Positions 3,132 through 28,051 of a stretch of 64,000 nucleotides of DNA are shown here, one piece after another. The position numbers were made by a program, and so were the translations under genes. The stretch comes from Cryptosporangium arvum DSM 44712 (GTDB taxonomy: Bacteria > Actinomycetota > Actinomycetes > Mycobacteriales > Cryptosporangiaceae), in the NCBI RefSeq assembly GCF_000585375.1, contig NZ_KK073874.1:3162001-3226000 (forward strand), in the 5' to 3' direction. The first letter of the stretch is position 1, and each line of letters opens with the position of its first letter. Under the pieces are notes generated by a model. The model saw only the letters and a list, made by a program, of their open reading frames with translations, had not been told where the DNA came from and did no database searches.

Positions 3132-3745
3132 GAACCGCTCCTCCCGACGACGACCGAGTGCTGATCGTCCACGATGGCTCCGTACCGCGAAAGCCGTTAT
3201 TCGCCCGCCGCGAGAACCGAGGCGCCCCCCACCGCGATGCTCACCTCCCGCCGACGCTCCTCGACGTTCCGGTAGGCCTCCAGCCAGAGGTGAACCGTCG
3301 TCGGTTGTGGTCGGAGCGGCGCCTGCGCCGGCCCGGGACAGCGGTGTCCCGGGTGCGGCCACCAGCGTCGCATTCGCCCCGGCCGACGGCACGACCCCTG
3401 GCGCTCCGGCCACCGACCAGAAGGCCAGCTTTCCGGACGGACCACCGGTGGTCGTCGGTGGCGGAAAGCCCACGCTGTCGCGTGTGTCGTGAACCGAACG
3501 TTCGCGGTGTAGCGGCGCCGATCGTGCCTCGAATAGATCCGCGCGAAAGTAGTGGCGCAGCAGGGGGAACACACACAGCGCACCACGCGCCCCGGGCCGC
3601 GCCACGTCCGACCACCGCCGGCGCGAACTCCGCGCGGTGGCCCACTGCCGCGCGGATGCCGTGCACGGTGGAACAGGGGCAGCGCGGCGATCCGGTCCGC
3701 CATCGGGATCGGGCTGCCGCGGGGGGTGACGCTTACAGTGGCCGG
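3132..3745. other. 614-bp stretch without an intact gene
   Basis: Between the NmrA-like gene and the GlxA-type regulator I see no intact gene. On the minus strand an open stretch ending at a TAA at 3197-3199 reads HLWLEAYRNVEERRREVS and then VLAAGE; this looks like the C-terminal helix of a lost protein I cannot name. An 82-bp element at 3493-3574 recurs at 26353-26434 (listed separately). The remaining sequence is GC-rich without convincing coding signals. A candidate promoter for the regulator lies at 3734-3739. Confidence 0.5.
3493..3574 (+). repeat. 82-bp dispersed element, copy A
   Basis: Aligns without gaps to the reverse complement of 26353-26434, with 66 of 82 positions identical by hand alignment. 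Fully conserved blocks are ACCGAACGTTCG (with palindrome CGAACGTTCG) at one end, GATCCGCGCGAAAGTA in the middle and CAGGGGGAACACAC at the other end. No RBS or ORF follows directly in this copy, whereas copy B leads into a 42-residue gene. Conserved blocks with diverged spacers suggest a regulatory element or RNA rather than a recent duplication. Confidence 0.7.
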
Positions 3746-25227: not shown

Positions 25228-26091
25228 TCAATCGGCCGGAAGCGGCCAGCCGTCCAGCACGTGGCCGGGATGTTCACGCCGGAACCGCTGCCGGACCTCG
25301 ACGTACCGGGTGGGCGTGAGCCCGGTGAGCGCCCGCACCTCGTGGCCGAAGTGGGCCTGGTCGAAGTAGCCCGCACCGTGGGCGAGGGCACCCCAGTCGA
25401 TCGGTCCGGCCGGGTCGATCGCGAACACGGTCGCCATCAGCCGGTGGGTGCGGGCCAGCCGCTTGGGCGTGACCCCGACGAGCTCGGTGTACCGCCGGGC
25501 CAGGTGGGTGCTGCTGACCCCGGCGGCCGTCGTGAGGTCGCCGATCGCCACCGTTCCGCCGGTCGCCGCGATGACGCCGCTCGCGTGCCGGACCAGCTCC
25601 AGGCCGGTGGTCCCGCCGGGCTCCGCGGCCGCGCCCAGCCGCCGCCGCAGCTCGTCCTCGAGCAGCGTCAGCATCTCGTGCGGCCCGGCCGCCGCGGCCA
25701 GGCGCTCACGCAGCCGTGCGACCGCCGACCGGCCCCACACCTGCTCCACCGCCACCGGCCGGTCACGCAGCTCGGCCGCGGGCATCGGCAGGAACGGCGC
25801 CAATCCCCACGGTTTGACGTGCACACCGACCGACCGGGTGTCCGGCGGGTAGCCGAACTCGTACGCGCGGGTGGGCATCGTGATCACACAGCCGTCGGCG
25901 TACTCGGCCGCCTCGAGGTCGGCGCCCCCACGGATCCGGAACGGCGCCCCGAGGTTGACGACGAGCAACGCCGACGGCGCGGGCGGCACGGTGAACCGCG
26001 CGTACGGCGGCGCGCCGTCGAGGTAGTAGAGGTCGTCGATCAGCCCGTCCAGCGGCGGTCGCGGCACTCGGGACACGTACTCCACCCGCAC
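25228..26091 (-). CDS. AraC-family transcriptional regulator
   Basis: A 287-residue regulator. The N-terminal sensor part is DUF6597-like (FTVPPAPSALLVVNLGAPF; DTRSVGVHVKPWGLAPFL). The C-terminal AraC HTH pair is AIGDLTTAAGVSSTHLARRY and LAHGAGYFDQAHFGHEVRAL, followed by GLTPTRYVEVRQRF. The GTG at 26091 is chosen from the family start V-E-Y; upstream codons lack protein character. It precedes the RibD-like gene and may control it. Confidence 0.85.
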   Translation of the reverse strand: MRVEYVSRVPRPPLDGLIDDLYYLDGAPPYARFTVPPAPSALLVVNLGAPFRIRGGADLEAAEYADGCVITMPTRAYEFGYPPDTRSVGVHVKPWGLAPFLPMPAAELRDRPVAVEQVWGRSAVARLRERLAAAAGPHEMLTLLEDELRRRLGAAAEPGGTTGLELVRHASGVIAATGGTVAIGDLTTAAGVSSTHLARRYTELVGVTPKRLARTHRLMATVFAIDPAGPIDWGALAHGAGYFDQAHFGHEVRALTGLTPTRYVEVRQRFRREHPGHVLDGWPLPAD

Positions 26092-26152
26092 AGCATGACC
26101 CTTGACCGCCGACCTGGGCACACCCCCGGAGGCACCTAACGGCACGCGCGAC

Positions 26153-26181
26153 GGCCCGGGGCGCGTGGTGCGCTCCGGGCC
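26153..26181 (-). terminator. Hairpin terminator after the WDYN gene
   Basis: An inverted repeat GGCCCGG ... CCGGGCC with a 15-nt centre that can pair further (GCGC/GCGC). It lies 20 nt after the stop of the 42-residue gene at 26201-26329 and 62 nt before the AraC start, so it would separate the two transcription units. There is no U-tract, as is usual in high-GC actinobacteria. Confidence 0.45.
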
Positions 26182-26200
26182 GGTGGTGGTGCGGGGTGCG

Positions 26201-26329
26201 TCAGCTGCAGGGGTTGTAGTCCCAGCAGTCGTTGTAGCGCTTCTTGTGGTGGCGGCGACGGCGCGGCTTGCACTCGTTGTAGTCCCAGTCGTTGCCCTGG
26301 TTGTAGTCCCAGCCGTAGCAGTCGCTCAT
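26201..26329 (-). CDS. 42-residue protein with three WDYN motifs and four cysteines
   Basis: An unlisted short gene on the minus strand: ATG at 26329, TGA at 26201-26203. WDYN occurs at residues 7-10, 15-18 and 36-39. The centre is strongly basic (KPRRRRHHKKR, residues 21-31), and cysteines are at 4, 20, 35 and 41. GGAGG stands 9 nt before the ATG. Aspartate and asparagine are unusually rich and there is no hydrophobic core, signal peptide or membrane segment. I recognise no family. The regular motifs with paired cysteines and a good RBS argue for a true product: a metal-binding or disulfide-linked peptide, a nucleic-acid-binding peptide, or a modified-peptide precursor are all possible. The 82-bp dispersed element lies directly upstream. 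Confidence 0.7.
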   Translation of the reverse strand: MSDCYGWDYNQGNDWDYNECKPRRRRHHKKRYNDCWDYNPCS

Positions 26330-26352
26330 GTCGCCGTTCCTCCACGAAGTCG

Positions 26353-26434
26353 GTGTGTTCCCCCTGCGGTGCCATTACTTTCGCGCGGATCCGGCCGGTG
26401 CTCGATCAGCGGCCCGACGCCCCGAACGTTCGGT
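26353..26434 (-). repeat. 82-bp dispersed element, copy B (upstream of the WDYN gene)
   Basis: Reverse-complement partner of 3493-3574, gapless over 82 bp. In the orientation of the 42-residue gene it begins with the palindrome CGAACGTTCG, continues through GATCCGCGCGAAAGTA and ends with GGGGGAACACAC only 24 nt before the ATG. It therefore spans the presumed promoter or 5' leader of that gene. It also directly follows the broken end of the GNAT remnant. Confidence 0.7.
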
Positions 26435-26484
26435 CGGCGACAGTCCCTCGCCGCCCGGCGACCCGAACTCCGGACCCGGGGGTC

Positions 26485-26762
26485 CACCGTGGCTCGCCCG
26501 ATTCCCAGCGAGCGCGCCACCGGCAGAACCGTACGGAGCATCGCGGTGGCGTGGCCGCGGCGGCGGGCGGAGGGCCGGACGTCGTATCCGATGTGACCGC
26601 CCACCTCGCGCAACTGCGGCGTCAACCGGTGCCGGACCGCGATGCGACCGAGGTCCTCGCCGCCCTCGGCCCACCACCGATCTCGGTCCGGTCGGTCTCG
26701 GCGCCGCGTCCCTCGGCGCGCAGCTCGGCGATCGCGGCGAGGAACGAGGCTCGCCGGTCCAC
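26485..26762 (-). pseudogene. GNAT acetyltransferase remnant with internal deletion
   Basis: Two pieces of one GNAT protein remain. The first, from a GTG at 26762, reads RRASFLAAIAELRAEGRG then ETDRTE. The second, in another frame, reads RWWAEGGEDLGRIAVRHR, REVGGHIGYDVRPSARRRGH with the acetyl-CoA loop, and LPVARSLGIGRATV. The middle of the protein and everything after RATV are gone. The C-terminal break is close to the 82-bp element. It cannot be active. Confidence 0.7.
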
Positions 26763-27179: not shown

Positions 27180-27602
27180 GTGGCTCGTGGTGATCTGACG
27201 AATGCGGAGTGGGAAGTCTTGTCGGCGGTGTTGCCGTCGGCTAAGCCGGGTGGTCGGCCGCCGCGTTCGCGGCGGCAGGTCATTGATGGGATCCGGTGGC
27301 GGGTGAGGACCGGGGCGCCGTGGCGGGACCTGCCCGAACGGTATGGGCCGTGGGAGACCGCGTATGCGCTGTTCCGGGACTGGCAGCGGGACGGGACCTG
27401 GGCGCGCATCGTGTCCGATCTGCAGTCCCGCGCCCAGGCCCGGGGGCTGATCACCTGGGACGTGTCCGTCGACTCCACCGTGGTCCGGGCTCACCAGCAC
27501 GCCGCGGGCGCCCGTAAAAGGGGGTCGATCAGAAACAACCGCCGGGAGGGTGCACCGCAGAGCCCAACGACCATGGTCTGGGACGGTCACGCGGCGGGTT
27601 GA
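27180..27602 (+). CDS. IS5-family transposase, OrfA
   Basis: A 140-residue N-terminal half of a DDE transposase: [50 protein letters not shown], and the first catalytic Asp in [18 protein letters not shown]. It starts with GTG 38 bp inside the element. The frame ends at 27602 with an unrelated tail. Full-length enzyme is expected from a -1 shift at AAAAGGGGG (27516-27524), which would give [14 protein letters not shown] and lead into OrfB. Confidence 0.9.
27516..27524 (+). other. Probable -1 ribosomal frameshift site
   Basis: The run AAAAGGGGG follows the AGA-R codons of OrfA. In the -1 frame a TAA ends at 27517, and the open frame then continues into OrfB. Slipping back one base on AAA gives [12 protein letters not shown] and then [17 protein letters not shown], the expected continuous transposase sequence. 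A simple decoding error or fixed deletion elsewhere is less likely because the family sequence is restored exactly from here. Confidence 0.6.
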
Positions 27603-28051
27603 GCACCAAGATCCATCTCGCGGCCGAGGGCGGACAGCGTCCGCTGTCGCTGCTGGTCACCGCCGGGCAGGCCGGAGACGCGCCGCAGTTCCAGCCGGTG
27701 ATCGACGCGATCGGTGTCCCCGGTCGAGTCGGCAGGCCCAGGACACGGCCGGCGCGGGTCCTAGCCGATAAGGCCTACGGATCCCGCGCCAACCGCGTCT
27801 ACCTGCGCCGACGCGGAATCCGCGCCACCATCCCCGAACCAGCCGACCGGTTGGCCCACCGCCGACGTCGCGGCAGCGCCGGCGGCCGCCCACCGACGTT
27901 CAACGCCGAGACCTACAAGCAGCGCCACGCGGTCGAGTGCGGGATCAACCGCCTCAAGCGCTACCGGGCGGTCGCGACTCGCTACGACAAACTCGCCGTC
28001 CGCTTTCTCACGACGCTGCACATCGCCGCGATCAACGAATGGCTACGGTGA
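27599..28051 (+). CDS. IS5-family transposase, OrfB
   Basis: A 150-residue C-terminal half of the transposase, beginning near [19 protein letters not shown]. The second catalytic Asp lies in [14 protein letters not shown]. The Glu of the DDE triad is in [22 protein letters not shown], the Y(2)R(3)E(6)K-like signature. The open frame actually extends upstream to 27518, as needed for the frameshift fusion. The coordinates given start at the first in-frame TTG and overlap OrfA by 4 nt. It looks intact, so the element may still move. Confidence 0.88.

Follow-up and report, generated by a model that had tools for sequence, protein, structure and literature searches.

The alpha/beta-type SASPs of Firmicutes spores form a multigene family, and the mini-protein family described here is alike in having several dispersed genes for similar small proteins in each genome, under common control, and in the packing role that we propose for it; its members are, however, shorter, rich in Cys and Tyr and from another phylum, and no SASP model was among the matches of 22 members at E ≤ 1. 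The tufA/tufB and rRNA genes are homogenised by gene conversion, and resemble the family in that coding parts are similar within a genome while flanks have diverged; the family differs in having at least 10 copies of a 130-bp ORF, and in that gene conversion is here something that we infer. The type I toxins Ldr, Ibs and Hok are, like the family, encoded by very small ORFs in several copies, each with a promoter and terminator of its own, but those toxins are hydrophobic membrane peptides, whereas the mini-protein has a GRAVY of about −2; identification as a type I toxin was rejected because GRAVY is −1.9 to −2.3 (five copies, with computed charges of −0.2 to +3.8) and A, I, L, V, T and F together make up 0.5% of residues (50 copies). 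Finally, SspA of Actinoplanes is a putatively disordered spore-surface protein that is anchored to the spore cell wall and matters in development (PMC13293333); the likeness to the mini-protein is of one putatively disordered actinomycete protein to another, and the anchoring to the spore cell wall sets SspA apart (PMC13293333).

The gene that led to the family lies in a 64,000-nucleotide stretch of the Cryptosporangium arvum genome (the window, to which plain positions refer), which is present as a single contig of 9,195,993 bases. On the minus strand, an ORF of 42 codons plus TGA runs from an ATG at 26329 to 26201 (26201–26329) and encodes MSDCYGWDYNQGNDWDYNECKPRRRRHHKKRYNDCWDYNPCS*, a 42-residue protein with three WDYN motifs, cysteines at 4, 20, 35 and 41 and a basic run at residues 21–31; the plus strand of the same interval reads as an Ala/Val-rich frame. 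A Shine–Dalgarno GGAGG (26339–26343, minus strand) precedes the ATG by 9 nt, in agreement with the first-pass annotation of this DNA as a complete short gene with a ribosome site. Among 50 copies of the gene, GGAGG occurs within 20 nt of the start codon in 42, and the exact string GGAGGCTGGACGAC stands directly 5′ of the start in 27, the window copy having GGAGGAACGGCGAC. Further upstream lies a 78-bp conserved element (26368–26445, minus strand), a putative promoter/operator that aligns gaplessly in 44 copies (consensus aGTGTTnnnAAncGAACGTTCcgggcGTcgcgnnGcCGATCGAGCngnnngcnGATCcgcGcGAAgCTAgTGgCAcA) and ends 33–50 nt from the ATG. The element model R1 matches its own 44 members by construction, among them the window copy (G000:C1:3188369-3188444, E 2.6e-16; G000 is the C. 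arvum genome). Downstream of the stop codon, a GC-rich hairpin (26152–26182, minus strand), the putative terminator, pairs CGGCCCGGAGCGC with GCGCCCCGGGCCG with one mismatch and folds better than any of 200 shuffles (z −3.73, 0/200 equal); a scan for a U-tract found no T run after it. The stems vary among copies with pairing kept: a perfect arm of at least 9 occurs in 27/50 copies vs 10/1000 mononucleotide shuffles, and at least 10 pairs with one mismatch allowed in 42/50 vs 17/1000. Judged from sequence, a copy would usually be a monocistronic unit of the 78-bp element at fixed spacing, a ribosome site, the ORF and a hairpin.

Around the window copy, no match to the sigma-70 promoter consensus was found in 26050–26600. 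The motifs GCCGATC and GAACGTTC, which we took to be reminiscent of FliA/WhiG- or ECF-type promoters, led us to weigh a promoter of these types, but the idea was unsupported and the literature did not settle it. No Rfam RNA family was found within the window, and a sister locus gave one sub-threshold match (22.5 bits, the cut-off being 70). An IS4/5-type transposase is encoded in two overlapping frames (27180–28051; DUF4096 in the first frame) about 0.7 kb from the unit, and a second copy of the element, its ORF lost, is found at 3483–3558 on the plus strand (E 6.1e-14, outside model R1), where it joins the right half of a family terminator; the proximity to an IS and a dispersed element recorded in the first-pass annotation is thus correct.

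To define the family, 59 profile matches in four genomes of the genus were collected, of which 50 were used in the ORF analyses; the nine left out comprise six that run off contig ends, a partial of 20 codons, the 30-residue short form G001:C33 and the divergent G002:C14, whose ORF is intact. The element alignment is of 44 of the 50, omitting L057, L062:10086, L066:3481 and L072, whose upstream DNA is divergent or has been replaced, L062:2731, which a partial tandem copy has overrun, and L063:2610, which is intact. All 50 ORFs are open, in frame and 39–46 residues long, 48 starting with ATG and one with CTG (L072 has other DNA at the start); as they were picked for an intact core, decayed copies are under-represented, and other copies of the element have indeed lost the ORF. 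With that reservation, the outcome that the first-pass annotation named as its refutation, a lack of homologues or homologous DNA with frameshifts, did not occur, and its flagging of the gene was justified. Three Arg columns hold Arg in 49/49, 49/50 and 50/50 copies with CGC, CGT and CGG mixed, and the serines of the C-terminal arm are written AGC or TCG. Constant arginines under varying codons argue for coding, and amino acids are kept and length changes are in frame throughout these intact-core copies, as for a protein-coding gene. A chance ORF, which had been doubted from the start, can be rejected on the basis of 17 copies in the own genome, matches in 4/4 genus genomes and substitutions that respect amino acids, and we regard it as all but certain that the mini-protein gene family is real. 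The same substitutions bear on the reading of the locus as a functional transcript, a small RNA with an ORF present by chance: the upstream element and hairpin, with a terminator region that folds well (z −3.73), would suit it, but the ORF RNA folds about as its shuffles do (z −0.97; 33/200 as good), and a transcript of this kind is extremely unlikely.

Protein matches in the own genome number 21, of which 17 have E ≤ 5.4e-13; the other four, at E ≥ 0.2, are noise. With a profile of 22 members, 17, 21, 10 and 11 matches were obtained in the four genus genomes (17 in the own genome), and none in the one other genome of the family Cryptosporangiaceae that was searched. A single-sequence search of 101 relatives gave strong matches confined to the same four genomes, the rest beginning at E 0.024, and strong profile matches occurred in 4/397 order, 1/394 class and 1/396 phylum genomes sampled, all of them genus members. 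Outside the genus, the best match in these samples was at E 0.004, and the further genomes at E 0.004–0.009 (one order, two class, one phylum) were taken as noise. At the level of sequence, these searches show a family of genes for proteins of mostly 39–46 residues that, in the searches made, is limited to the genus and counts 10–21 profile matches per genome. Draft contigs end inside units (G002 C11, C21, C31 and C32; G001 C47 and C75), so copy numbers in the drafts are uncertain. In the own genome, seven copies are clustered at 8.964–8.979 Mb. At L045 (2727–3917), a unit adjoins an EF-Tu gene, perhaps a second tuf copy.

Pfam, NCBIfam, PHROGs and PADLOC were searched with the 22 members, none of which had a convincing HMM match. 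The curated family HMMs returned noise at best (CHCH at E 0.049, PRK15213.1 at 0.35 and phrog_18462 at 0.025, each for 1/22 members), PADLOC models gave no match, and the profile run against PDB sequences gave one match only, at E 0.51. The view that the protein is unlike known families is therefore upheld within the libraries searched. Phage, plasmid and viral collections held no relative, the 36 stretches that fit the peptide pattern not coding for one, and a phage or plasmid origin was rejected for want of any match there. Scans of contigs of named organisms likewise found no relative, though records of or near the own genome may be absent from that scan, and a search of open-licence PMC papers found no description of such a mini-protein family. 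A protein of fewer than 50 residues is easily overlooked; the one described here, for which the family, structure and genome searches gave no relative, is probably produced in large amounts from 10–20 genes per genome.

The conserved pattern of the protein is C-[KR]P-RR-basic-CW[DS]Y. A Cys precedes the basic patch in 48/50 copies and CW[DS]Y/F follows it in 49/50, with HH between KP and CW in 41/50; the number of Cys per copy ranges from 2 to 5 and the number of DY units is variable. The symmetrical arrangement of WDYN motifs and cysteines on which the first-pass annotation dwelt is true of the window copy, but Cys at 4, 20, 35 and 41 recur in only 2/50 copies, and three WDYN in 2/50 as well (none in 22 copies, one in 15, two in 11); what is kept is not WDYN or the Cys positions but the one Cys before the patch, CW[DS]Y/F and the composition. 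The suggestion of a designed fold was not borne out either, as a single-sequence structure model (pLDDT 52.9) is uninformative on the fold. Over the 50 copies, residues are dominated by Y (16.9%), D (14.8%), R (13.9%), C (10.1%) and N (8.8%), followed by H (7.6%), S (6.8%), K (5.3%) and W (3.7%). The near-absence of aliphatics makes an ordinary hydrophobic core unlikely, and the peptide is therefore probably disordered, or else takes its shape from a metal, a disulfide or partners.

Metal enters more directly if the family is a metal or redox buffer, in which Zn or Cu would be bound by the cysteines on either side of the basic block and by the central HH, or the Cys pair would serve, by cycling, as a store of thiols, the many copies giving capacity. 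The Cys and His contents and the two flanking Cys positions agree with this, as does the HH where present; set against it are the varying Cys count, the nine copies that lack the central HH, family matches at noise level only and the scarcity of shared neighbours of any kind, and we consider a buffer rather unlikely. Surface or spore-wall material, a Tyr/Cys-rich peptide cross-linked by dityrosine or disulfides, would fit the high gene dosage and the Tyr, Cys and Trp contents, which may resemble the composition of the Bacillus coat protein CotC, and an oxidase partner may be present among the neighbours, whose annotation is partial; but a protein this hydrophilic and almost free of aliphatics offers no hydrophobic stretch fit for a signal peptide, and wall material is unlikely. 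A RiPP or pheromone precursor, giving a modified or signalling peptide, could likewise be short, rich in Cys and Tyr and variable in its number of DY units. In a comparison of neighbours (matches of at least 45% identity and at least 60 residues, genes called by a simple script), however, the flanks in the own genome and G001 share one gene (72% alike), which does not adjoin an ordinary unit in each of the two genomes: in the own genome its neighbour is a divergent paralogue, and in G001 it is >4 kb from a unit. A modifying enzyme encoded at a distance is possible, and a precursor peptide is, overall, very unlikely.

The copies within a genome are alike in a manner that depends on the part compared. 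For 44 copies, within-genome identity is 0.85–0.94 in the ORF, 0.65–0.71 in the element and 0.27–0.33 in the flanks, which are thus at the random level (expected identity 0.30). On trees, the species label changes 4 times for element plus ORF, 5 times for the ORF alone and 10 times for the element alone, shuffled labels giving means of about 21.5. Ten pairs of ORFs are identical to the base with elements 64–88% alike; L041 and L042, for example, have identical 120-nt ORFs, with elements that are 0.64 alike and unconstrained sites that are 0.27 alike, the latter value being random. Elements are more similar in identical-ORF pairs (mean 0.76) than in other pairs (0.68), and some pairs are therefore plain recent duplicates. 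At the orthologous locus L049 (G002)/L060 (G003), recognised by five shared gene matches (81–90% alike in the four listed), each ORF is nearest to a paralogue in its own genome (100% and 99.2%) and 94.4% identical to its orthologue. The elements of the two loci are 0.72 alike and are not mutual nearest, that of L060 being closest to a G000 copy (0.76) and that of L049 to a G002 copy (0.81), so the whole unit may have been replaced here. Third positions of Arg codons are similar at 0.65 within G000, 0.53 within G001, 0.48 between G000 and G001 and 0.42 between all species; in G001 they are hardly more alike than between species, which speaks against gene conversion. Although these tests are not unanimous, they suggest gene conversion limited to the ORF as the simplest cause of the likeness within genomes; unit replacement, or selection for a species-specific sequence, is a possible alternative. 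With coding parts that are scattered yet stay alike, while their own elements drift, the family is a natural system for studying how gene conversion acts on very small bacterial genes.

For most copies there is no synteny between species. Three places are common to G002 and G003, at one of which the element and terminator are kept and the ORF is lost in G002. In two attempts to locate an empty site, the neighbours proved absent from G001, G002 and G004, with a relative in G003 each time. Dispersed, mostly non-syntenic copies, together with ORF-less copies of the element and the decayed-looking gene pieces (judged by eye) between the units of the 8.964–8.979 Mb cluster, are what a selfish, MITE-like cassette with an incidental ORF would leave. 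But terminal repeats, sought by eye only, were unconvincing, and diverged elements, random flanks and coding constraint on the ORF imply no recent spread of one cassette, so that we judge such a cassette decidedly unlikely.

Codon use was compared through the share of CGT among Arg codons, which is 23/62 (37%) in 12 distinct own-genome unit ORFs, 24/400 (6%) in 13 long window ORFs, 66/347 (19%) in ORFs called in a ribosomal-protein cluster and 5/24 in EF-Tu of the own genome. The difference between unit and window ORFs has a Fisher p of 2.5e-10, a value that is too strong, as the codons of related ORFs are not independent. The CGT-rich arginines hint at high expression, although runs of Arg codons may carry constraints of their own.

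For function, we favour, tentatively and with somewhat less than even confidence, an abundant polyampholyte that would condense or pack itself or nucleic acid, as the sequences of the family lead us to propose. Acidic-aromatic arms (DY, WDY, NDY) would flank a block of Arg, His and Lys in a chain that is near neutral and probably disordered. Arg together with Tyr or Trp favours nucleic-acid binding and phase separation; the Arg block with these aromatics would bind nucleic acid or the arms of neighbouring molecules, and the flanking Cys pair would lock the assembly by disulfide or metal. Many similar genes under one type of element would allow large amounts of a single protein to be made together, dose being the most evident explanation for the gene number, and ORF-limited gene conversion with selection would keep the copies alike. 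More speculatively, the protein might serve at a stage of dormancy or stress, much as endospores use SASPs. A broader proposal, that the genus has made from scratch a histone- or SASP-like dosage system, with 10–20 scattered monocistronic genes, a dedicated 78-bp element and homogenisation of the ORF only, for an aliphatic-free, charge-balanced Tyr/Arg/Asp/Cys peptide that condenses, by itself or together with nucleic acid, at a set life stage, is doubtful.

The element, finally, extends beyond the mini-protein genes, and looks like a putative regulatory element of the genus. A scan of the own genome with R1 recovers the 17 unit copies, which are model members, and further sites, one of them (1783367) at E 5.7e-5; across 41 relatives at E ≤ 1e-4, it recovers genus members and one weak match in G024 (4.1e-5), and G004 has six weak matches (best 9.8e-4), of which two of three inspected fall inside called ORFs. 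Of 21 further sites inspected (20 in the four genomes and window 3483–3558), 16 are without a family ORF, some being remnants with element and hairpin only, which suggests that single copies are dispensable; the other five are three cut by a contig end, the divergent 40-residue paralogue at L121 and the 30-residue short form at L136. Sharing of the element suggests a co-regulated gene set. Among the sites that lack the family ORF, the same leader leads at L119 to a gene for a hydrophobic protein with no Pfam hit, and the element stands 5′ of a sigma-70-family gene at L120 and L151/G000:C1:3790795-3790870 (regions 2 and 4 above the cut-off, region 3 below), possibly as a regulatory link or as a captured remnant. 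The L121 paralogue (789–1030), missed by the profile search, is rich in His, Asp and Trp and has the same element and a hairpin. A weaker form of the element (L138, L139 and L140; E 2.2e-4 in G000, 6.1e-5 in G003 and 9.2e-4 in G002) lies ahead of a tiny ORF and of a larger protein, the G000 version of which carries a trypsin-like domain and a zinc-ribbon end that scores below threshold, and at L133 in G002 a weak match (E 1.5e-6) precedes a tiny, Tyr-rich ORF of 37 residues that begins MSYGTETYEESGSAG.
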